Origin: Acinetobacter piscicola
Lineage (GTDB): Bacteria; Pseudomonadota; Gammaproteobacteria; Pseudomonadales; Moraxellaceae
Assembly: GCF_015218165.1 (NCBI RefSeq)
Contig: NZ_CP048659.1
Coordinates: 1,612,001-1,676,000, forward strand
Direction: 5' to 3'
DNA length: 64,000 bases
In this document: positions 25,974 to 38,424 of the stretch, piece by piece
How positions within the stretch are numbered: position 1 is the stretch's first letter
Layout: each line of letters opens with the position of its first letter
Notes under the pieces: generated by a model
Databases searched by the model: none
Told to the model about the DNA's origin: nothing
Seen by the model: the letters and a program-made list of their open reading frames with translations, nothing else
Made by a program: the position numbers and the translations under genes

Positions 25974-27023
25974 TTAAATACTGACTTTGATTTGCCAAGC
26001 GTCTGTTTTTATTGGGGTAAATGTAATTTCACAATCCACAAATTTTTGAATCATCTCCGCTTGAGTTTTGCTATGTTCGCTGATGACTTGTGCAGTAAAT
26101 ACGCCACCTTGACCTAATGCTAATGGTAGTAACAATTGGTCAGTCAGATATTCATCCGCAATTGCATCAGCATTTAAATAAGCTTTGACTTCTTTTGCTA
26201 GATCACTTGCAACTTTTTCAGCACTTTTTTTCATTTCACCTAAAGCAGAAAATACTTGTTGGTGATGTTCATAATTCAGTACCACAAAAGCCGTATTTCC
26301 CTGACTGATGCCTTGAAAATTTAAACGCTTACGCTCAGTTAAATCTAATTTGTTATTCAGTACTTCAAGTTCACGGTCTGCAATATTTACAGGGATATTT
26401 AAAGCAGAGGCGTAGGCAATGGTATCTAATAATTTACCACGATCTTGCGCTATATATTTAGTTTGCTCTGTCCAAGGATAAATCGTTGCATTGATCTGAC
26501 CTGCGCCAATTGGGAAAAATCCTGCACGTTTACACTCGAAATCAATGTGTATCCCTAAGCGTTGAATCGCAGGTAGAAAACATTGTTCAATAAAATCAGC
26601 CGTTGGTGCCATTGGGTTATGCGTTCCGCCGTGTATACTAATTTGACTGGATTCACTTTGCATCATCAGGGCAGGGAGCAAAGTTTGTAAAACTAGAATT
26701 GTGCTACCTGCTGAACCGATGTGAAAATCGTACTTTCCTGCTTGGACTTGTTGAGGCTTGAAATATAATCTTTGTGAATGTAATTCAGCACCTTCAACCG
26801 TTGCATTGCTGATGCGTTGTGACGCTTGCACGCAGACTAAGTGCTGGCGCATTAACCCTGGTTTTTTACGTCCTGCACGGATATTCACTAGTTCAAATGG
26901 AATGCCTGTCAGCATGGATAATGAAAGGGCAGTGCGGAGGATTTGTCCGCCACCTTCACCTTGTGAGCCATCAATTTGAATGGTTTTGTTTTTTAGTTGT
27001 GTTTTCATTTTACTCTTCATCAT
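25974..27023 (-). CDS. rtcA: RNA 3'-terminal phosphate cyclase RtcA
   Basis: Converts RNA 3'-phosphates to 2',3'-cyclic phosphates through an RtcA-AMP intermediate, and can adenylylate 5' ends. The 349-residue protein has IQIDGSQGEGGGQILRTALSL, IRAGRKKPGLMRQHL, and the nucleotidyl histidine in a late SEHSKTQ segment. Start is uncertain: 27023 or 27008 (MKTQLKNKTIQ). It is the last gene of the minus-strand rtcB unit, unlike E. coli where rtcB and rtcA are adjacent. Confidence 0.95.
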   Translation of the reverse strand: MMKSKMKTQLKNKTIQIDGSQGEGGGQILRTALSLSMLTGIPFELVNIRAGRKKPGLMRQHLVCVQASQRISNATVEGAELHSQRLYFKPQQVQAGKYDFHIGSAGSTILVLQTLLPALMMQSESSQISIHGGTHNPMAPTADFIEQCFLPAIQRLGIHIDFECKRAGFFPIGAGQINATIYPWTEQTKYIAQDRGKLLDTIAYASALNIPVNIADRELEVLNNKLDLTERKRLNFQGISQGNTAFVVLNYEHHQQVFSALGEMKKSAEKVASDLAKEVKAYLNADAIADEYLTDQLLLPLALGQGGVFTAQVISEHSKTQAEMIQKFVDCEITFTPIKTDAWQIKVSI

Positions 27024-28340: not shown

Positions 28341-28802
28341 TTAAGTTTCAAGTAAATCCACTTGCCAATTGGTCGCCTGAATCAATACATTTAAATCACG
28401 CAGTTTGGCACTGATATCATCGGCTTGTTTTTGCAATGATGATACTGGAATCACTTTATGCCATTTAATCTCACGGGTACTGTAGCGATCAGGCTCACGA
28501 TTGGTATTGCTGATTGCAGAGGTTAAGATTTTATGACGTTCTACAACTTCATCACGTTGTGTCAATAAAGCCAACAACGAACGACCATCAGCTAATTTTG
28601 CTAAAGCATTGGTTTGGTGGATAGCCAAAACCAACTTTTGTGATTCCTGAGTTAAGGCAAATACTTGCTTTAATAACTCATTTGGATCTTCAGATGGTTC
28701 ATCACCATCTTGTACCAATACGTTTGCATTGATCCGTTGTTTGAGTGAAGCGAGTTTCTTTTGTTGATCGCTTCGTAATAATAATGCTTCTGCAAGTTTC
28801 AT
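28341..28802 (-). CDS. DIP1984-family protein
   Basis: A 153-residue all-helical protein: MKLAEALLLRSDQQKKLASLKQRINANVLVQDGDEPSEDPNELL, then INxTN-like HQTNALAKLADGRSLLALLTQRDEVVERH and a C-terminal coiled coil ending QATNWQVDLLE. This pattern is the DIP1984 family (once called septicolysin-like); its function is unknown. It sits in the rtcB unit between two orphan genes and the structured RNAs. A link to RNA repair is inferred from position only. Confidence 0.8.
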   Translation of the reverse strand: MKLAEALLLRSDQQKKLASLKQRINANVLVQDGDEPSEDPNELLKQVFALTQESQKLVLAIHQTNALAKLADGRSLLALLTQRDEVVERHKILTSAISNTNREPDRYSTREIKWHKVIPVSSLQKQADDISAKLRDLNVLIQATNWQVDLLET

Positions 28803-29837: not shown

Positions 29838-31106
29838 TTAACCTTTTACACAAACAACCTGATTTAGCGTATAAACCACTTCCACCAAATCACTTTGCGC
29901 TTTCATCACATCTTCAATCGGCTTATAAGCAGACGGAATCTCATCAATCACGGCTTCATCCTTACGGCATTCCACACCTTGAGTTTGCTCAATCTGATCT
30001 TGCACAGTAAACAACTTCTTCGCAGCAGTACGGCTATGCACACGACCTGCACCATGCGAACACGAACAGAATGATTCCTGATTTCCCTTACCTTTGACAA
30101 TAAATGACTTCGCACCCATCGACCCTGGAATAATTCCATACTCACCCAAGCGGGCACGTACCGCACCTTTACGAGTGACCAAAACTTCCTGACCGAAATG
30201 TTCTTCCTTATCCACATAATTATGATGACAGTTTACCGCTTCAACTTTGGCGTTAAATGGTTTTTTGATAATAATACGTAAAGCTTGTACCGCAGCTTCC
30301 ATCATTAACTCACGGTTTTTCATGGCAAAACGTTGCGCCCAACCCACTGCAAACCAATAATCGTCGAAATGCTCAGTTCCTTCAACCAAATAAGCTAAAT
30401 CTTTATCAGGCAAGTTAATAAAATGCTTTTGCATGTCTTTACGAGCCAGCTCGATAAAGTGGTTACCAATCGCATTTCCTACACCACGAGAACCTGAATG
30501 CAACATAATCCACACCTGTTGATGTTCATCCAGACAGATTTCGACAAAGTGGTTTCCAGTTCCCAAAGTCCCTAACTGTTTATGGTTATTGGTATTTTTT
30601 AAACGTGGATGCTTGGCACAAATGTATTCAAAATCAGTGACCAATTCAGCCCAAGCCTGATCTACACGTTCGGTTGGCGTATCCCAAGATCCTCGGTCAC
30701 GACGACCACGCCCTTTGGTCATACCATGCGGAATTAATCGTTCTAACTCAGTACGTAAGGCATGTAAATTATCAGGCAAATCAGATGCAGACAGTGAAGT
30801 ACGAGCTGCCATCATCCCACAACCAATATCCACACCCACCGCAGCAGGGATAATCGCGCCTTTGGTTGGGATCACGCTACCAATGGTTGCACCGATTCCG
30901 ACATGCACATCAGGCATTACCGCCATCCATTTATAAATAAAAGGCATTTGCGCGGTTTTTAATAGTTGATCTTTCGATTTCTCATCGATAGGGACACCTT
31001 TAGTCCACATTTTAATTGGAACGCCTTTTGCGTCCTGAATAATGTTATATGCACGTTCATTTGCAGCTTGTTTTTCAATTTGTTCTACGACTGACATTAT
31101 CATCAT
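29838..31106 (-). CDS. rtcB: RNA-splicing ligase RtcB
   Basis: A 422-residue GTP- and Mn-dependent ligase that joins RNA 2',3'-cyclic or 3'-phosphate ends to 5'-OH ends. Metal and catalytic residues are visible: C96 in GVDIGCGMMA, GTGNHFVEI, HSGSRGVGNAIG, and the guanylylated His in CSCSHGAGRVHSR. Ribosome site AAAGGAA lies just upstream. Expression is predicted from the sigma54 promoter at 31192-31206, through a leader with a strong hairpin. Confidence 0.97.
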   Translation of the reverse strand: MMIMSVVEQIEKQAANERAYNIIQDAKGVPIKMWTKGVPIDEKSKDQLLKTAQMPFIYKWMAVMPDVHVGIGATIGSVIPTKGAIIPAAVGVDIGCGMMAARTSLSASDLPDNLHALRTELERLIPHGMTKGRGRRDRGSWDTPTERVDQAWAELVTDFEYICAKHPRLKNTNNHKQLGTLGTGNHFVEICLDEHQQVWIMLHSGSRGVGNAIGNHFIELARKDMQKHFINLPDKDLAYLVEGTEHFDDYWFAVGWAQRFAMKNRELMMEAAVQALRIIIKKPFNAKVEAVNCHHNYVDKEEHFGQEVLVTRKGAVRARLGEYGIIPGSMGAKSFIVKGKGNQESFCSCSHGAGRVHSRTAAKKLFTVQDQIEQTQGVECRKDEAVIDEIPSAYKPIEDVMKAQSDLVEVVYTLNQVVCVKG

Positions 31107-31151: not shown

Positions 31152-31191
31152 GAAAATTTCATACATCTTGATGATGTATGTAATGTATATT

Positions 31192-31206
31192 GCTAAGAGT
31201 GTGCCA
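31192..31206 (-). promoter_or_regulatory. Sigma54 promoter of the rtcB unit
   Basis: Minus strand TGGCACACTCTTAGC: the -24 GG and -12 GC have the exact sigma54 spacing, with the first six bases matching consensus TGGCAC. It differs at one base from the promoter upstream of rsr. RtcR, encoded nearby, is the expected activator. Confidence 0.88.
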
Positions 31207-31374
31207 AATTTGATTTTATTTGGAATTTAATTTTTAAGTAATTGATATTTAATGATTTAAAAATATTTATTTTATTTTTAGATTTTTTAGTACGATTTTA
31301 TTTTCTTTGTTTATATATAAAAATATATAGTTAAATATAAGAATAGATATTTAAAAATTAATCACTGCATAAAA

Positions 31375-31423: not shown

Positions 31424-31684
31424 CTAAGGTTTTTGATTGATCTTGAGATAGTGCTGTTCAAGATGAATATCCAAGCGTTCTGCCAATGGATCATCATCTA
31501 AAACCTGACGATGCCCAATCAGCAATTTCATATCGGCTGTTTTGCGCTTTTTACTTGGTGGTTTTTCATGATAGGCATGGCATTTTTTATACCAATGATG
31601 CGTGGTTAAATAATAACTTTTGATGCGAAGTTGCTCTAAAGCAAGATCGAGATCGTCATCTTTAACGTGGACTTTGATGCTCAT
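31424..31684 (-). CDS. Small bS21-like protein, paralog 1
   Basis: From ATG 31684 the protein is 86 residues: MSIKVHVKDDDLDLALEQLRI, then WYKKCHAYHEKPPSKKRK and a C-terminal extension. The first 50 residues follow ribosomal protein bS21 (xIKVxxxxxxxxALxxx, then FYEKPxxxRKR). A longer frame from 31729 has no family similarity and runs through a conserved leader element, so I reject that start. Housekeeping bS21 sits on the 30S platform near the 3' end of 16S rRNA. This copy is divergent, with an acidic C-terminal tail, and lies between rtcB and the Y-RNA array. Confidence 0.75.
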   Translation of the reverse strand: MSIKVHVKDDDLDLALEQLRIKSYYLTTHHWYKKCHAYHEKPPSKKRKTADMKLLIGHRQVLDDDPLAERLDIHLEQHYLKINQKP

Positions 31685-31698
31685 AAATCGTGTTTTAC

Positions 31699-31746: not shown

Positions 31747-32037
31747 TTATTGACCTACGGCAAAAGTATTGCCTGTACGTTGATATTGTTGCTTTAAATC
31801 AATTTTATGCCAAAAAATAGGATGAGGTGTAGGTGGTGTACATAGTGCAAAATGGCTTTGTGCCTGACTGATCAGGCGTTTCATTTTACGTTTTTTGCGC
31901 TTTAAAATGGCAGCTTGCTCATAAAAGCCTTGGCGTTTTTTATACCAACGGGTGGCTTGTAGGGAATATTGTTTTTGCTGGAATTGATGTAGCGCGAGTT
32001 CAATATTGTTATCTGTAACAATGATGTGAATAGACAT
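31747..32037 (-). CDS. Small bS21-like protein, paralog 2
   Basis: A 96-residue protein: MSIHIIVTDNNIELALHQFQQ, then RWYKKRQGFYEQAAILKRKKRKMKRLI, then a variable tail. It shares the N-terminal fold and basic helix of bS21 (FYExxxxxKRKxR) with paralog 1, though the EKP is changed to EQA. It is first in a two-gene unit with a sigma70-like promoter at 32088-32116. The 16-nt element lies 13 nt upstream of the ATG, and no ordinary AGGAG ribosome site is close to the start. Confidence 0.72.
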   Translation of the reverse strand: MSIHIIVTDNNIELALHQFQQKQYSLQATRWYKKRQGFYEQAAILKRKKRKMKRLISQAQSHFALCTPPTPHPIFWHKIDLKQQYQRTGNTFAVGQ

Positions 32038-32169: not shown

Positions 32170-32523
32170 ATGGGAATGAGTAAATTAGGTTGCTTATGTG
32201 GTCATGTTATACGGGATCAAACAGACTATATTCCTTATAAAGCATCGTTCATAAGTGATAAATTGGACTTTGCCATGCTTGATGAACTAGAGAAAAGAAT
32301 CGAAATGTATAAGCTGAAAATGGCTGAAGGTAAAAAACTTCCCGATTATTATTTATATGATTCACTTTCAGGTGTCGATATTAATTTTAGAAAGCATATG
32401 TATGAATGTGTTAATTGTGGTCGTATTTGGCTACAAACTACTGAGAATAATTTCAAATCATATTTATCTGAAACAGGGCAATATGAAGCTGTTCTAGATG
32501 TGGATAATATAGAGTTAAAATAA
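32170..32523 (+). CDS. Small zinc-ribbon-like protein of unknown function
   Basis: A 117-residue protein with two cysteine pairs: LGCLCGH near residue 8 and CVNCGRIW near residue 78, a likely zinc ribbon split by a charged helical insert (EKRIEMYKLKMAEGKKLP). It is on the plus strand, convergent to the Y-RNA array (50 bp away) and divergent from the bS21-like pair. I do not recognise the family. Confidence 0.65.
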   Translation: MGMSKLGCLCGHVIRDQTDYIPYKASFISDKLDFAMLDELEKRIEMYKLKMAEGKKLPDYYLYDSLSGVDINFRKHMYECVNCGRIWLQTTENNFKSYLSETGQYEAVLDVDNIELK

Positions 32524-32572
32524 TTTTTTAACTGAAAATTATGTAAATAAATTTTTAATTTATAAAACAACA

Positions 32573-32705
32573 GGATATAAACAAAGTTGCGAAGACAATC
32601 GTGGCTCTACCTACTGAGCTACTGTTTCATTGATTTAAAAGTGAAACAGGGTGGAATCGAACCACCGACAAACGGATAATGTAGTCCTCAAGGCATTTTA
32701 TATCC
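32573..32705 (-). ncRNA. Y-RNA-like unit Y6 with permuted tRNA mimic
   Basis: Minus strand order: outer stem GGAUAUAAA, internal loop AUGC, inner stem AGGAC, UACAU, T-arm GGUGG-UUCGAUU-CCACC, closed acceptor CUGUUUC/GAAACAG, D-arm GCUC-AGUAGGUA-GAGC, inner stem GUCUU, UUUG, and outer UUUAUAUCC. The T half precedes the D half, so it is not a normal tRNA gene. The anticodon arm is replaced by the Y stem. Last unit of the array. Confidence 0.75.
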
Positions 32706-32722
32706 TATTATTTTTACAACAG

Positions 32723-32868
32723 ATCAATCATCCATCAACAAGTTGAATGATAAGACATTTATCTTAGCGCTTTTACTTTAAGCGACAGTATGTACATACC
32801 GCAGCGGAGTCTAACCGCTGATCTCTAAGTCCCTATGTAGTCCTATCGGCATTTGATGGATGAATGAT
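32723..32868 (-). ncRNA. Y-RNA-like unit Y5, divergent tRNA mimic
   Basis: Outer stem of 11 bp plus 4 bp across one mismatch (32853-32868 with 32723-32738); inner stem GAUAGGAC/GUCUUAUC is perfect. The inside holds a T-arm-like hairpin CAGCGG-UUAGACU-CCGCUG, an acceptor-like hairpin and a D-arm-like GCUU/AAGC hairpin in the same permuted order as Y3, Y4 and Y6, but the T-loop no longer has UUCGA. Confidence 0.7.
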
Positions 32869-32900
32869 CTCAGTATATTTTCATATACTGTCTTACTTAT

Positions 32901-33022
32901 AAATCAACAAAATATCAAAGACGTTCGCGCCTTACCACTTGGCTACCATTACCGAAATAATGGGGTGGATTCGAACCACCGATTACGTCAATTGAAGATG
33001 TAGTCCTTGAAGCATTTGATTT
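32901..33022 (-). ncRNA. Y-RNA-like unit Y4 with permuted tRNA mimic
   Basis: Outer stem AAAUCAA/UUGAUUU, inner stem CAAGGAC/GUCUUUG, T-arm GGUGG-UUCGAAU-CCACC, acceptor CCAUUA/UAAUGG capped by a UUUCGG loop, D-arm GCC-AAGUGGUAA-GGC. All helices are perfect and differ in sequence from those of Y3 and Y6. Confidence 0.77.
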
Positions 33023-33036
33023 ACTTTTACTACATT

Positions 33037-33164
33037 TGCATAAACAAAATATTGAAGACGTTTCGTTGCTCTATCCAACTGAGCTACCGTATGTCTGCCA
33101 TACAGGATGGACTCGAACCACCGACCTACGCATTAAAGATGTAGTCCTCAACGCATTTTATGCA
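33037..33164 (-). ncRNA. Y-RNA-like unit Y3 with permuted tRNA mimic
   Basis: Outer stem UGCAUAAA/UUUAUGCA, inner stem UUGAGGAC/GUCUUCAA, T-arm with loop UUCGAGU, acceptor CUGUAUG/CAUACGG closed by GCAGA, D-arm GCUC-AGUUGGAUA-GAGC with the G18-G19-like pair. The internal loop AUGC opposite UUUUG is shared with the other units. Confidence 0.78.
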
Positions 33165-33178
33165 TTTTTTCACTTTCT

Positions 33179-33247
33179 GATCACCAACAAGGTATTGATA
33201 AAACATGTCATTTGGAAAGAATGTAGTTCTATCTGCATTTGGCAATC
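33179..33247 (-). ncRNA. Y-RNA-like unit Y2, minimal (no tRNA mimic)
   Basis: Outer stem GAUUGCCAA/UUGGUGAUC (9 bp with two wobbles), conserved AUGC and UUG internal loop, inner stem GAUAGAAC/GUUUUAUC (8 bp). The tRNA-like part is replaced by a short loop of about 21 nt beginning UACAU. Confidence 0.7.
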
Positions 33248-33257
33248 TGTTACAACG

Positions 33258-33320
33258 CGCACAACAAATTATTTTAGAAACGTTTCATTGGAAAAATGTA
33301 GTTCCTAGCGCATTTGTGCG
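33258..33320 (-). ncRNA. Y-RNA-like unit Y1, minimal (first after rsr)
   Basis: Outer stem CGCACAA/UUGUGCG, conserved AUGC and UUUG internal loop, inner stem UAGGAAC/GUUUCUA, then a loop beginning UACAU. It starts 83 nt beyond the rsr stop, so it is probably processed from the rsr transcript. Confidence 0.7.
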
Positions 33321-33402: not shown

Positions 33403-35031
33403 TCAGCTTGCGTGAAGCTGAGACTGCGGAATTTCTATCTTTTCAATTTCGCCAACCCAATGATCTGCATGCATTTCATTATTGGTAAAACTTTCAATCA
33501 GTTTAAATACCGTATCGGAAAATCCACCAATATTCATCACATCTTTTTGCTCAGGCATTTGCGCAGTCGCATAAGGCTGTAAATCGACACAGACAAGTTT
33601 TGCATTTGGATTTTGCTGTTTTAACTTGTTCCAGTAAATCATCATTCCTGTTGAGTGTTTTAGTCCTCGTATTTGATCAAGCCATGACTCATTATCCGAA
33701 AAATAAATCACCAAATCGACCTCGGCATTTTCTTTCACTAACTGTTCCAATGGTTTAGAACAATCTGTTCCGCCACCACACATATTGGCAAATTTTTTGG
33801 CTAAGGCGAAAATATCAATTTCTTCCTGTCGATCTCCTAATGTCTTTTTACGCAAATATTGCTGTACTTTAGTCAGATTGGACAATGCACGCACTTGAGT
33901 ATCAAAGGGCATTAAACGTATGCTTGGATTCACATATTTAAATGCACTTGCAAATAAAGCCGCCGCATCAACACAACGTAACTGTGAAGTTGCCCCTTTG
34001 CGATAACCCGTTACAGGGCTTCCCATTGAACCTGAAACATCAATCGCAATCACCACATTTCCTGATAATTTTGGTACATGAGCAATGGCACGCTGCATGG
34101 CAAATTTTAGTGCATTGGCAATTTCATGCGGCATTCCATCGGCAAGGGCAGACCACGCCATCATGAGCTGATAAGGTAAAACTCGACTTTTCGCAATCGC
34201 CGTTTCATCCATCAATTTATCCGCAATAATTTTGGTCATGCCTTTAATTTCAAATACACCATGACGCAAAAAAGTATTCAGATTCATTCTGAGCATTTGC
34301 CAAGAACCATTTTTAGCAATTTCCGCCCATTGTGCTGCTGTTAAATTCAGATTAGTTAACAGTTGCATCGGTACTTTTGGTACTTCAGTCGTCTGACCTA
34401 AGCGAAATTGTTCCAATGCCTGAATCTGAGGTGGCAATTGTTCAATTGCATAATCTTTTCCTAACACATAGGCAAAGAAGGCATTATATTGCTCAGTCTT
34501 TGGTTTTGGATGGGTCATTTTCAACACATCCGCAAGTGATGGGCTGTTTCCAATATTCGCCGCCATAAGCTGTTGATCATTTGCCGTTAAAATCCAATCA
34601 TTCACCATACGTTTTGGTAATGAACCCAAAGACTTACGTCCAATGATTCCTGCACGCATAATCTGCACAAAGTTACGCAATTGTTTTCCGTTATCGATAA
34701 TGATTGGGAAAAGTTGTTTAAATAAATCGGCATCGAGTTCTGAAAGCAATGCCAATAACACCACAGGCGTATCTTTCATATGTGCATGTTGACGTGCATA
34801 AATCGCTGTTTTGGCAACAAATTCAGGTTCAACTTCCAATGCCAAAGTGAGAATCTGATCCAATTGGACTTGGGCATCTTGGTAAAAAGTATGGTTCAAC
34901 GTACCTGTTGCCGCCAACTGTGCCAAAGCTGAGCGTGATTTTAAAGGATAAGCACGACCGCCTACTTCATTCAGTCCTAATGGTGGTTTGACCTTCGCAG
35001 TGCGAGAGGCAAAAATTGTCTTGTTCGCCAT
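33403..35031 (-). CDS. rsr: Ro60-family protein Rsr (TROVE plus vWA domains)
   Basis: A 542-residue homolog of the Ro autoantigen. Residues about 15-320 form the TROVE HEAT-repeat ring (GGRAYPLKSRSALAQLAATGTLNHTFY, FVQIMRAGIIGRKSLGSLPKRMVNDW). The C-terminal von Willebrand A domain has the metal site DVSGS at 331-335 and later GGGTDCSKPL. Ro binds Y RNAs and the ends of misfolded or damaged RNAs, and in some bacteria directs them to PNPase. A sigma54 promoter lies 46 bp upstream and the Y-RNA array follows downstream. Confidence 0.95.
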   Translation of the reverse strand: MANKTIFASRTAKVKPPLGLNEVGGRAYPLKSRSALAQLAATGTLNHTFYQDAQVQLDQILTLALEVEPEFVAKTAIYARQHAHMKDTPVVLLALLSELDADLFKQLFPIIIDNGKQLRNFVQIMRAGIIGRKSLGSLPKRMVNDWILTANDQQLMAANIGNSPSLADVLKMTHPKPKTEQYNAFFAYVLGKDYAIEQLPPQIQALEQFRLGQTTEVPKVPMQLLTNLNLTAAQWAEIAKNGSWQMLRMNLNTFLRHGVFEIKGMTKIIADKLMDETAIAKSRVLPYQLMMAWSALADGMPHEIANALKFAMQRAIAHVPKLSGNVVIAIDVSGSMGSPVTGYRKGATSQLRCVDAAALFASAFKYVNPSIRLMPFDTQVRALSNLTKVQQYLRKKTLGDRQEEIDIFALAKKFANMCGGGTDCSKPLEQLVKENAEVDLVIYFSDNESWLDQIRGLKHSTGMMIYWNKLKQQNPNAKLVCVDLQPYATAQMPEQKDVMNIGGFSDTVFKLIESFTNNEMHADHWVGEIEKIEIPQSQLHAS

Positions 35032-35076
35032 GACAGCATCCTCAAGTTTAATTTTTAATTTCTTGATGGATATATT

Positions 35077-35091
35077 GCGAAGAGTGTGCCA
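35077..35091 (-). promoter_or_regulatory. Sigma54 promoter of the rsr-Y RNA unit
   Basis: Minus strand TGGCACACTCTTCGC with exact -24/-12 spacing; one base differs from the rtcB promoter. The roughly 60 bp further upstream also resemble the rtcB upstream region, so RtcR probably controls both. Confidence 0.88.
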
Positions 35092-35318
35092 AGTTTAATT
35101 GTTATGCTTAAATTAATTTTTAAATCATTGATTTTAATTTGTTAAATTATTTTAATTTTATTTTTTTATGTGGATTTAAAATTATAAGAATTTTGTCTTT
35201 GATATTTTTTTAGATATAAAACTATATATTTTTATAATCATTTATGCGCAGTTGATTTAATTTTTTTATAAAATGAGACAAGGTAAGAAATATCTTAAAT
35301 TTTGAAATTTTTGAATGA

Positions 35319-36831: not shown

Positions 36832-38424
36832 ATGCAAAAATCTAAAAAAACGGTGGTGATTGGTTTTGTCGGTTCAACGTTGGATCAGGGCAAAAAGGAA
36901 GAACGTTGGCAACGTTGGCGCCCAACCATGAGTTTATTGATGCATGAAGACTTGCTGATTGATGAATTAGTTTTATTGCATGACCGTCGTAGCCTAAGTT
37001 TGATTGAGCATTTACAACAAGACGCACAACAAATCTCCCCAAATACTCATATTTCAGGTCATCAAGTTAATATTCGAGATCCGTGGGATTTTTCGGATAT
37101 GTATGGAGCACTCTATGATTTTGTAAGATCTTATCCTTTTGATACGGAAAATTACCAATATCTACTGCATATCACTACAGGAACGCACGTTGCACAAATC
37201 TGTTGGTATTTATTGGTCGATGCTCATTATTTACCAGCCAAATTGATTCAGAGTTCACCCACAGGCAAGCAGCAACCTGAAGGTGAGTATCGCATTATAG
37301 ATTTAGATTTGTCTCGTTATGCCGCTTTAAATCAACGTTTCGAGAATGAAAAAACGGCAAACTGGCAACAACTTAAAGCCAATATTGCTACCAAAAATAA
37401 AGATTTTAATCAATTGATTCAAGAGGTTGAGTTGGTCGCAACACGTTCCATTGCACCGATTTTAATTATGGGCGCAACAGGTGTTGGAAAGTCACATTTA
37501 GCGAAACAAATTTATCAGTTGAAGAAAGAAAAATTCCATTTAGAAGGGCGTTTGGTTGATGTGAACTGTGCAACTTTATGCGGTGATGGTGCTATGTCGG
37601 CACTATTTGGGCATATCAAAGGTGCATTTACAGGGGCTGCTAATGCCCGTACAGGCTATTTAAAAAGTGCTGATGGTGGGATTTTATTTTTAGATGAAAT
37701 TGGTGAATTAGGCTTAGATGAACAAGCCATGTTACTAAAAGCATTGGAAGATAAATCATTTTTTCCGGTCGGTTCAGACAAAGAGGTGCAGGCAGATTTT
37801 CAACTGATTGCGGGGACGAATAAAGATTTGCGTGAAGAAGTACAAGCAGGACGCTTTCGGGAAGATTTGTGGGCACGCTTAAATACATGGACTTTTTTCT
37901 TACCTGATTTAAAGCATCGCCGTGAAGATATAGCACCCAATATTGAGTTTGAATTACAGCGTTTTGCTATGCAACAACAGCGTCAATTGCGTTTTCATAG
38001 TGATGCTTTAGAAAAATATTTAAAATTTGCACAATCTTCTGAAGCCACTTGGCAGGGAAATTTCCGTGATTTAACCGCAAGCGTGACTCGCATGGCAACT
38101 TTGGCAAATGGTGAACGCATTGGTTTGTTTGAAGTTGAGGCAGAGATTCAACGTCTGCAACGCTTGTGGCACTTACAATCTGAACCTGAAAAAGTGTCTA
38201 ATTTAATTGGATTGCTCAGTACACAACAATTGGCTGAAATAGATGAATTTGATCGAATCCAGCTTGAAGGGGTGATTGCGGTGTGTCAGCAGTCAAAGTC
38301 GATGGCAGATGCAGGCAGACGTCTATTTGCCATTTCCCGTGAACAACGCCAAAGCACGAACGATTCAGATCGAGTGAAAAAGTATTTGGCGAAGTTTGGT
38401 TTAACATGGGCGGATATAGGTTGA
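36832..38424 (+). CDS. rtcR: RtcR, sigma54-dependent activator of RNA repair
   Basis: A 530-residue regulator. Residues 1-180 form the CARF-like sensing domain (KTVVIGFVGSTLDQG, LLHITTGTHVAQICWYLL). The AAA+ domain has Walker A GATGVGKS at 214-221, the sigma54-contacting GAFTGA at 264-269 and Walker B LFLDEI at 285-290; a C-terminal DNA-binding region follows. In enterobacteria RtcR is activated by RNA ends such as tRNA halves or cyclic-phosphate ends. Two sigma54 promoters in this locus are its expected targets. Confidence 0.95.
   Translation: MQKSKKTVVIGFVGSTLDQGKKEERWQRWRPTMSLLMHEDLLIDELVLLHDRRSLSLIEHLQQDAQQISPNTHISGHQVNIRDPWDFSDMYGALYDFVRSYPFDTENYQYLLHITTGTHVAQICWYLLVDAHYLPAKLIQSSPTGKQQPEGEYRIIDLDLSRYAALNQRFENEKTANWQQLKANIATKNKDFNQLIQEVELVATRSIAPILIMGATGVGKSHLAKQIYQLKKEKFHLEGRLVDVNCATLCGDGAMSALFGHIKGAFTGAANARTGYLKSADGGILFLDEIGELGLDEQAMLLKALEDKSFFPVGSDKEVQADFQLIAGTNKDLREEVQAGRFREDLWARLNTWTFFLPDLKHRREDIAPNIEFELQRFAMQQQRQLRFHSDALEKYLKFAQSSEATWQGNFRDLTASVTRMATLANGERIGLFEVEAEIQRLQRLWHLQSEPEKVSNLIGLLSTQQLAEIDEFDRIQLEGVIAVCQQSKSMADAGRRLFAISREQRQSTNDSDRVKKYLAKFGLTWADIG

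Follow-up and report, generated by a model that had tools for sequence, protein, structure and literature searches.

What purpose a whole array of small structured RNAs might serve next to a single ring protein gene is the question raised by a 64,000-nucleotide (nt) stretch of the Acinetobacter piscicola chromosome, hereafter the window. In this locus the gene for the Ro60-like protein Rsr (rsr) is followed on the minus strand by an array of Y-RNA-like units (33320-32566), two small open reading frames (ORFs), the RNA ligase gene rtcB, further genes and the RNA 3'-phosphate cyclase gene rtcA, with the regulatory gene rtcR lying divergently. All coordinates are positions within the window, and the units are numbered Y1 to Y6 in transcript order on the minus strand. 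The answer we put forward, with a probability of about two in three, is that the array comprises six units of the Y RNA kind that have one two-step stem in common but unlike heads (tRNA-like in three, decayed in one and missing in two), and that these units act as interchangeable RNA adaptors for Rsr. The idea of several adaptors was already present in the original prediction, made from the letters of this stretch, and it is also our best reading. What that prediction did not contain is that the longer units bear tRNA-like heads of several types, that two units have no head and one head has decayed, and that two sigma-54-like sites, described below, are present.

Units were identified with a motif-plus-pairing scan that requires a common motif, an outer stem and an inner stem, using a threshold fixed after the Acinetobacter units had been seen. 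Such scans, with reversed and reverse-complement controls, were used instead of a covariance model of the six units because the lengths of the heads are too unlike. Applied to both strands of the 64 kb, the scan returned exactly six matches, every one in the array, confirming the predicted placement of six minus-strand units downstream of rsr, between rsr and rtcB. The units span 63-147 nt and are separated by spacers of 8-30 nt, a small correction to the 63-146 nt and 10-32 nt first given. All six share the 19-nt motif AATGC-N4-(A/G)G(A/G)ACTACAT. Seven copies with at most one mismatch occur in the 4.28-Mb assembly, six of them being the exact copies that make up the array; elsewhere in the genome there is no exact motif, and the remaining copy carries one mismatch. 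The 20-mer ATGTAGTYCTnnnnGCATTT, previously ascribed to every unit, is exact in 5/6 and off by one base in Y1.

The stems of the units have unit-specific sequences kept by compensatory change, as had been proposed. When the 5' strands of each unit are allowed to pair with the 3' region of any unit in its array, its own 3' strand is the top-ranked partner in 6/6 units, an outcome equalled in 0/5000 permutations. The own partner also comes first in 8/8, 7/7, 8/8 and 5/5 units of four other arrays, adding up to 34/34 over five arrays taken singly and bearing out the conservation of stem pairing in relatives, a check named beforehand. For a set of 58 distinct cores (53 from Acinetobacter and 5 from Diaphorobacter, out of 108 non-redundant candidates), the covariation score is 0.841, compared with 0.203 after shuffling, and 0/500 shuffles reach it. 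Paired cells in these cores amount to 96.8%, versus 64.3% in shuffled and 37-42% in slid sets, but the first of these figures is inflated because the 3' strands were picked by best pairing, and the own-partner ranking is the fairer test. The outer stems, originally described as perfectly complementary, are near-perfect, with one internal mismatch in Y5 and G-U pairs in Y2, Y4 and Y6. A terminal stem, a conserved internal loop and an inner stem, the features that define a bacterial Y RNA, are all present and kept by covariation.

Different structures are mounted on this stem. Y1 (33258..33320) and Y2 (33177..33249), both on the minus strand like the remaining units, are headless and follow a YrlB-like plan, with loop regions of 19 and 21 nt, respectively, and with outer and inner stems of 7 bp each in Y1; neither matches the YrlB model (RF02565) even at E≤1. 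In Y3 (33037..33164), Y4 (32899..33024), Y5 (32723..32868) and Y6 (32566..32712), modules follow the tRNA-like order T arm, acceptor hairpin, D arm, which is absent in Y1 and Y2, and the Rfam YrlA model (RF02553, cut-off 69 bits) covers these four units end to end, at 59.4, 49.1, 28.9 and 59.4 bits, respectively. The heads of Y3, Y4 and Y6 have UUCGA-kind T loops and GG-bearing D loops, a loop caps their acceptor stem, and the Y stem is located at the site of the anticodon arm of a tRNA. Y5 has a head with all helices, which are kept in 4/4 species with eight pairs showing both-side changes; its T loop reads UUAGACU or UUAGAUU, and the T- and D-loop signatures of tRNA are gone, its best D and T scores not exceeding the shuffle maxima (9 vs 11 and 10 vs 10), while loose scan patterns still flag the unit. 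Two other identities were considered and rejected. Plain tRNA genes do not fit, given that ARAGORN finds none in the window and that the acceptor is loop-closed with no anticodon arm; a tmRNA match over the T arm and acceptor hairpin of Y6 (24.5 bits vs 70, E 0.0011) is explained by the tRNA-like head. We assign the predicted RNAs to the bacterial type of Y RNA.

The original prediction regarded an array of six as unusual, a view that the distribution of such arrays does not sustain. As a genus-wide probe the Rfam YrlA model was discarded: it gave matches at E≤0.1 in 99/99 Acinetobacter and 10/14 control genomes, none over the cut-off, and at least one such match in the A. piscicola genome falls on a tRNA-Lys cluster. 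At the cut-off, YrlA yielded no match in 10 related Acinetobacter loci. Rsr was taken as the search anchor instead, and it was found in 11/175 Acinetobacter genomes, in 5/369 genomes of the class (one a fragment and one the genome under study) and in 10/398 genomes of the phylum (one again the genome under study and one shared with the class set). A further 38 Rsr loci were drawn from named genomes, with partly overlapping species. Among the genomes reached, the closest Rsr is that of A. sichuanensis (97%). Scanning about 1.5 kb after rsr revealed 2-8 units in 51/51 loci, 264 units in total and, because the scanned stretches stop at this distance, lower bounds; the opposite strand and the reversed sequence, used as controls, gave one match each in 51 regions. 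The arrays of the 11 Rsr-bearing Acinetobacter genomes contain 5-8 units, with two scans disagreeing by one unit in three genomes. As a positive control we used two short phage-labelled, bacterial-chromosome-like records that hold an enterobacterial-type stretch of rsr, Y RNAs and rtcB. Rfam models identify in them YrlB (105.5 bits), YrlA (70.9) and, after yrlB and yrlA, a third, weaker YrlA-related unit below the cut-off (31.7 bits; L202 924-1037 and L203 1077-1190), and a slightly looser scan recovers all three above a threshold of 29, with other candidates falling below it. An array of six is high, not odd, and its headless units follow the YrlB plan. In one further Acinetobacter genome (G086; L071, L072), rsr is present as two overlapping segments that differ in reading frame, and the six-unit Y array behind it looks intact.

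Multiple units per Rsr could, in principle, be a matter of dosage only, with redundant copies raising the amount of Y RNA per ring protein and with head differences amounting to functionless drift. This explanation accounts for the variable number of units in Acinetobacter (5-8, with Y4 and Y5 missing from genome G048), for a docking core common to all units, for the lost tRNA signature of Y5 and for the likeness of the headless pair within the array, since Y1 and Y2 resemble each other (0.81) more than either does its A. guillouiae orthologue (0.68 and 0.77). The headed units behave otherwise. Across the four nearest genomes (A. piscicola, A. sichuanensis, CFCC 10889 and A. guillouiae), all four are found in the same order and with the same type of head, and they are closer to their orthologues than to the sibling heads of their own array, as illustrated by Y4, with a likeness of 0.88 to its A. 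guillouiae orthologue and of at most 0.74 to the other heads beside it. This retention of type and order in heads that have not been homogenised argues against mere dosage. In addition, the D arms of Y3 and Y6 are far better kept than their acceptor hairpins, which vary while mostly remaining paired (mean identities in the Y3 group of 0.98 for the D arm, 0.85 for the T arm and 0.42 for the acceptor; in the Y6 group, 0.96 for the D arm and 0.57 for the acceptor), and the signature loss of Y5 is the same in 4/4 species having this unit. We rate dosage as an unlikely explanation for the array.

To establish which tRNAs the heads resemble, we compared them with the 42 distinct tRNA sequences of the genome. 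The D arm of Y4, GCCAAGUGGUAAGGC, is identical to tRNA-Gln of the same genome over 15 nt (score 15, with 11 for the next isotype and 13 for the best of 60 shuffles), and its A. guillouiae orthologue scores 17 against tRNA-Gln and 8 against the next isotype. No coevolution of this Gln-type head with the host tRNA-Gln was observed: 10/11 genomes share an identical tRNA-Gln (no match in G086), while the A. guillouiae head differs in one D-loop base. The Y3 head has the D loop GGAUA of tRNA-Arg, within the longer GGAUAG. The pattern GGA[TC]AG is present in 6/6 distinct tRNA-Arg and 0/36 other tRNAs of the genome, as well as in 4/4 tRNA-Arg and 0/25 others of an Ensifer genome (29 distinct tRNAs, around 30/48 tRNA places). 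A20 is presumably an arginine identity element. By plain score, tRNA-Arg leads tRNA-Thr narrowly (20 vs 19). An Arg-type D-loop head is present in 34/51 arrays, which are not independent because of shared descent; in ANC 4805 and A. gyllenbergii, two of the six genomes of a second Acinetobacter group, GGGT stands in place of the Arg-type D loop. Y6 carries a common D-arm type, found in one tRNA-Phe of the genome, and we claim no isotype for it, with Phe ahead by 2 in A. piscicola and His or Asn in the orthologues. The same applies to a Leu-like head of other Acinetobacter, whose score of 11 equals the shuffle maximum of 11.

A second architecture of tRNA-like heads is found in the Rhizobiales, where the head of one unit starts and finishes with a half of the D stem, and the part so enclosed contains an extended anticodon-type hairpin, a T arm and a closed acceptor hairpin. 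Such a head amounts to a tRNA-like cloverleaf of four arms with its opening in the D loop (30 distinct heads; e.g. L097, with core CCGGCAGGAC). In an alignment of 17 cloverleaf heads (16 from Rhizobiales and one from another genome), 14/27 predicted pairs show both-side change in at least one sequence. According to these models, the docking stem replaces the D loop in Rhizobiales heads and the anticodon arm in YrlA-type heads. The Rhizobiales heads were assessed by alignment folding rather than with ARAGORN, which, among the matches listed for un-permuted heads, reports cloverleaves in some cases and draws a blank in at least one. Tentatively, and with more doubt than confidence, one may envisage the arrays as panels of tRNA-type-specific mimics, in which a single Ro-docking stem bears cores taken from various tRNAs (Arg, Gln and others), at the anticodon position in Acinetobacter and also at the D loop in Rhizobiales; the Ro ring would in this way address individual tRNA-handling enzymes or toxins in turn, and the Arg-type mimic would be the most widespread.

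Resemblance to tRNA also lends itself to another interpretation, in which the heads act mainly as decoys that soak up tRNA-cutting toxins or tRNA enzymes under tRNA-breaking stress and Rsr merely stabilises them. Heads that copy the D arms of different tRNAs, without an anticodon loop, and the recurrence of the Arg-type head are in line with this proposal. It sits poorly, however, with an array in which two of six units are headless and one has lost its signature. Anticodon nucleases, moreover, recognize tRNAs mainly via the anticodon loop, which is precisely what the heads are missing. A competitive-inhibitor role for YrlA has been raised by the authors of PMC7790460, and we consider decoys slightly less probable than dosage as an account of this locus.

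The predicted protein partner, Rsr (33403..35031, minus strand, 542 aa), contains the Pfam TROVE and vWA_Ro60 domains and matches solved Ro60 structures by sequence (2NVO, E 6.8e-14). Its predicted fold (mean predicted local distance difference test score, pLDDT, 78; predicted template modelling score, pTM, 0.77) has 12 PDB matches at E≤0.001, all of them Ro60, Rsr or TROVE chains. Residues D331-x-S333-x-S335, T422 and D446, presumably the vWA metal-site motif, are invariant among 16 aligned sequences. With 60.9 bits against an equivalog cut-off of 900 for NCBIfam RNA-bind_Rsr, the protein is, as judged from its sequence, a divergent member of the Ro60/Rsr family. A gene for PNPase is also present in the genome (1041 bits).

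Regulation of the locus can be approached through two sigma-54-like sites on the minus strand, TTGGCACACTCTTCGCA (35076..35092) upstream of rsr and the nearly identical TTGGCACACTCTTAGCA (31191..31207) upstream of rtcB (29838..31106, minus strand). Single matches of this type carry little weight, with 7 found and 6.2 expected at up to two mismatches, and for this reason the argument for the sites is their constancy of place: with at most two mismatches, both occur at the same positions in 11/11 Acinetobacter loci. Given their separate sites, rsr with the array and rtcB with rtcA (25974..27023, minus strand) may constitute two separately started units, both driven by the sigma-54 activator RtcR (36832..38424, plus strand). 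5' tRNA fragments with a terminal 2',3'-cyclic phosphate serve as activators of RtcR (PMC7790460), PNPase is bound by Rsr and YrlA (PMC9879122), and YrlA carries tRNA modifications, dihydrouridine and pseudouridine, made by tRNA enzymes (PMC8394870). In Acinetobacter sp. Tol 5 under severe desiccation, rtcB_2 and rsr are reported to be up together with recA, and Y RNAs do not figure in the passages concerned (PMC13130816).

On this basis we infer the following sequence of events. Broken RNA ends would activate RtcR, which together with sigma-54 would turn on rsr plus the array, and the array transcript would be cut within its short spacers. Each Y RNA would then dock on Rsr via the common stem and the AUGC/UUG internal loop, and its head would choose the partner, with tRNA-like heads recruiting PNPase and/or tRNA-binding enzymes and headless units serving only to gate the Rsr ring. 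An alternative built on the same regulator is a feedback sponge, in which the heads, through their D-arm portion, mimic the 5' tRNA halves to which RtcR responds and thereby switch the operon back off. The intact D arms of three heads would suit such a role, yet a free 2',3'-cyclic phosphate end is missing from the heads as drawn and headless units would be useless for it, making a sponge very improbable. Least credible of all, by a small step, is that the units are non-functional relics of tRNA or Y genes, as sub-cut-off Rfam scores and one decayed head might suggest, because covariation, with compensatory changes in both stems and in the acceptor hairpins, disfavours this reading, as do arrays in 51/51 scanned loci.

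Several observations nevertheless weigh against the reading of the units as interchangeable adaptors, in addition to the inflated pairing percentage and the low value of single sigma-54-like matches. No unit scores at or above the Rfam cut-off. When 26 units from four arrays are pooled, with orthologues mixed, the own partner comes first in 23/26, and both-side changes are seen in 13/16 pairs of the core, but 102/500 shuffles get there too. The folding of the headless units only modestly beats that of shuffles (z -1.6 and -2.0), and the likeness between them exceeds their likeness to orthologues, as noted above. The minimum-energy fold of Y3 prefers a competing 12-bp hairpin that takes in the docking strand and would hide the docking stem; this hairpin, AUGCGUUGAGGA/UCUUUAAUGCGU, is found in 5/5 aligned sequences, one with a broken pair, with no compensatory changes, and could reflect either a switch or chance. 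The contrast between acceptor and D arm seen in Y3 and Y6 is slight in the Y4 and Y5 groups (0.84 vs 0.89 in both). Lastly, the heads found in the second Acinetobacter group are for the most part different ones, and G048 dispenses with Y4 and Y5.

Y RNAs of bacteria and their mimicry of tRNA are already known, as is the rsr-yrlBA-rtcBA operon. In over 250 species, Chen et al. 2014 reportedly located Y RNAs close to Ro60, every species having one or more that resemble tRNA, which implies several Y RNAs per species. The headed units agree with YrlA in their place after rsr, their docking-type stem and the order of T arm, closed acceptor hairpin and D arm, and depart from it in their sub-cut-off scores, in the presence of several unlike heads side by side and in Y5, devoid of T- and D-loop signatures. 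Y1 and Y2 share with YrlB the headless plan and an AATGC...TTACAT-type core, and the scan recovers YrlB in the positive-control loci; they differ from it in lacking a match to the family model at E≤1. The locus reproduces the Salmonella rsr-yrlBA-rtcBA arrangement in its gene order (rsr, Y RNAs, rtcB, rtcA) and in the divergent rtcR, and its sigma-54-like site before rsr may correspond to the sigma-54 promoter there (PMC9879122), but it has six units where two are named in Salmonella, a second sigma-54-like site before rtcB and extra small genes between the array and rtcB. Compared with RYPER, the Deinococcus machine in which a Y RNA links Rsr to PNPase, it likewise encodes a Ro60-fold Rsr and PNPase, which may form a comparable complex, but offers several possible Y RNAs per ring protein.

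Provisionally, what appears to be new is the size of the array, the isotype-like variety of its heads, the recurrence of an Arg-type head, the decay of one head and the graft into the D loop. Judging from titles and the starts of abstracts, none of the works among the matches listed treats Acinetobacter Y RNA arrays or isotype-like heads, and PMC7790460 places the role of Rsr and Y RNAs beside the RtcBA repair genes, by its own statement, outside its studies. One docking stem with naturally different heads provides a ready-made experiment: the partners of each head can be set side by side, the array supplies its own controls in the headless units and the decayed head of Y5, and the recurring Arg-type head offers a concrete target for tests. 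If heads do select partners, the Y RNAs would in effect program Ro60 proteins, which would serve as platforms.

Other genes in and around the locus deserve mention. Between the Y array and rtcB lie two genes for bS21-like small proteins (31747-32037 and 31424-31690, both on the minus strand), with relatives at the same place in 9/11 Acinetobacter rtc loci, this one included. A profile of 11 such proteins retrieves bS21 chains (best E 5.7e-4), and the Pfam S21 model weakly matches 8/11 of them (best E 0.0039). In the ribosome, bS21 is located near the 3' end of 16S rRNA. Cleaved 16S rRNA is one of the proposed substrates of RtcA/RtcB (PMC9879122). Downstream of rtcB, a gene of the DUF6847/DIP1984 family (28341-28802, minus strand) has a relative in 11/11 Acinetobacter rtc loci, and none was found in the 13.6-kb Diaphorobacter locus. 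A 117-aa ORF occupies the opposite strand (32170-32523, plus) between the array and the S21-like genes, and in A. gyllenbergii its relative (41% identity) adjoins rtcR. Among phage records, 333/50,697 contain a Ro60 relative, all below 60% identity; that of Myxococcus phage Mx1 (H1, L204) has a tRNA-Gly and a gene for peptidyl-tRNA hydrolase in its vicinity.
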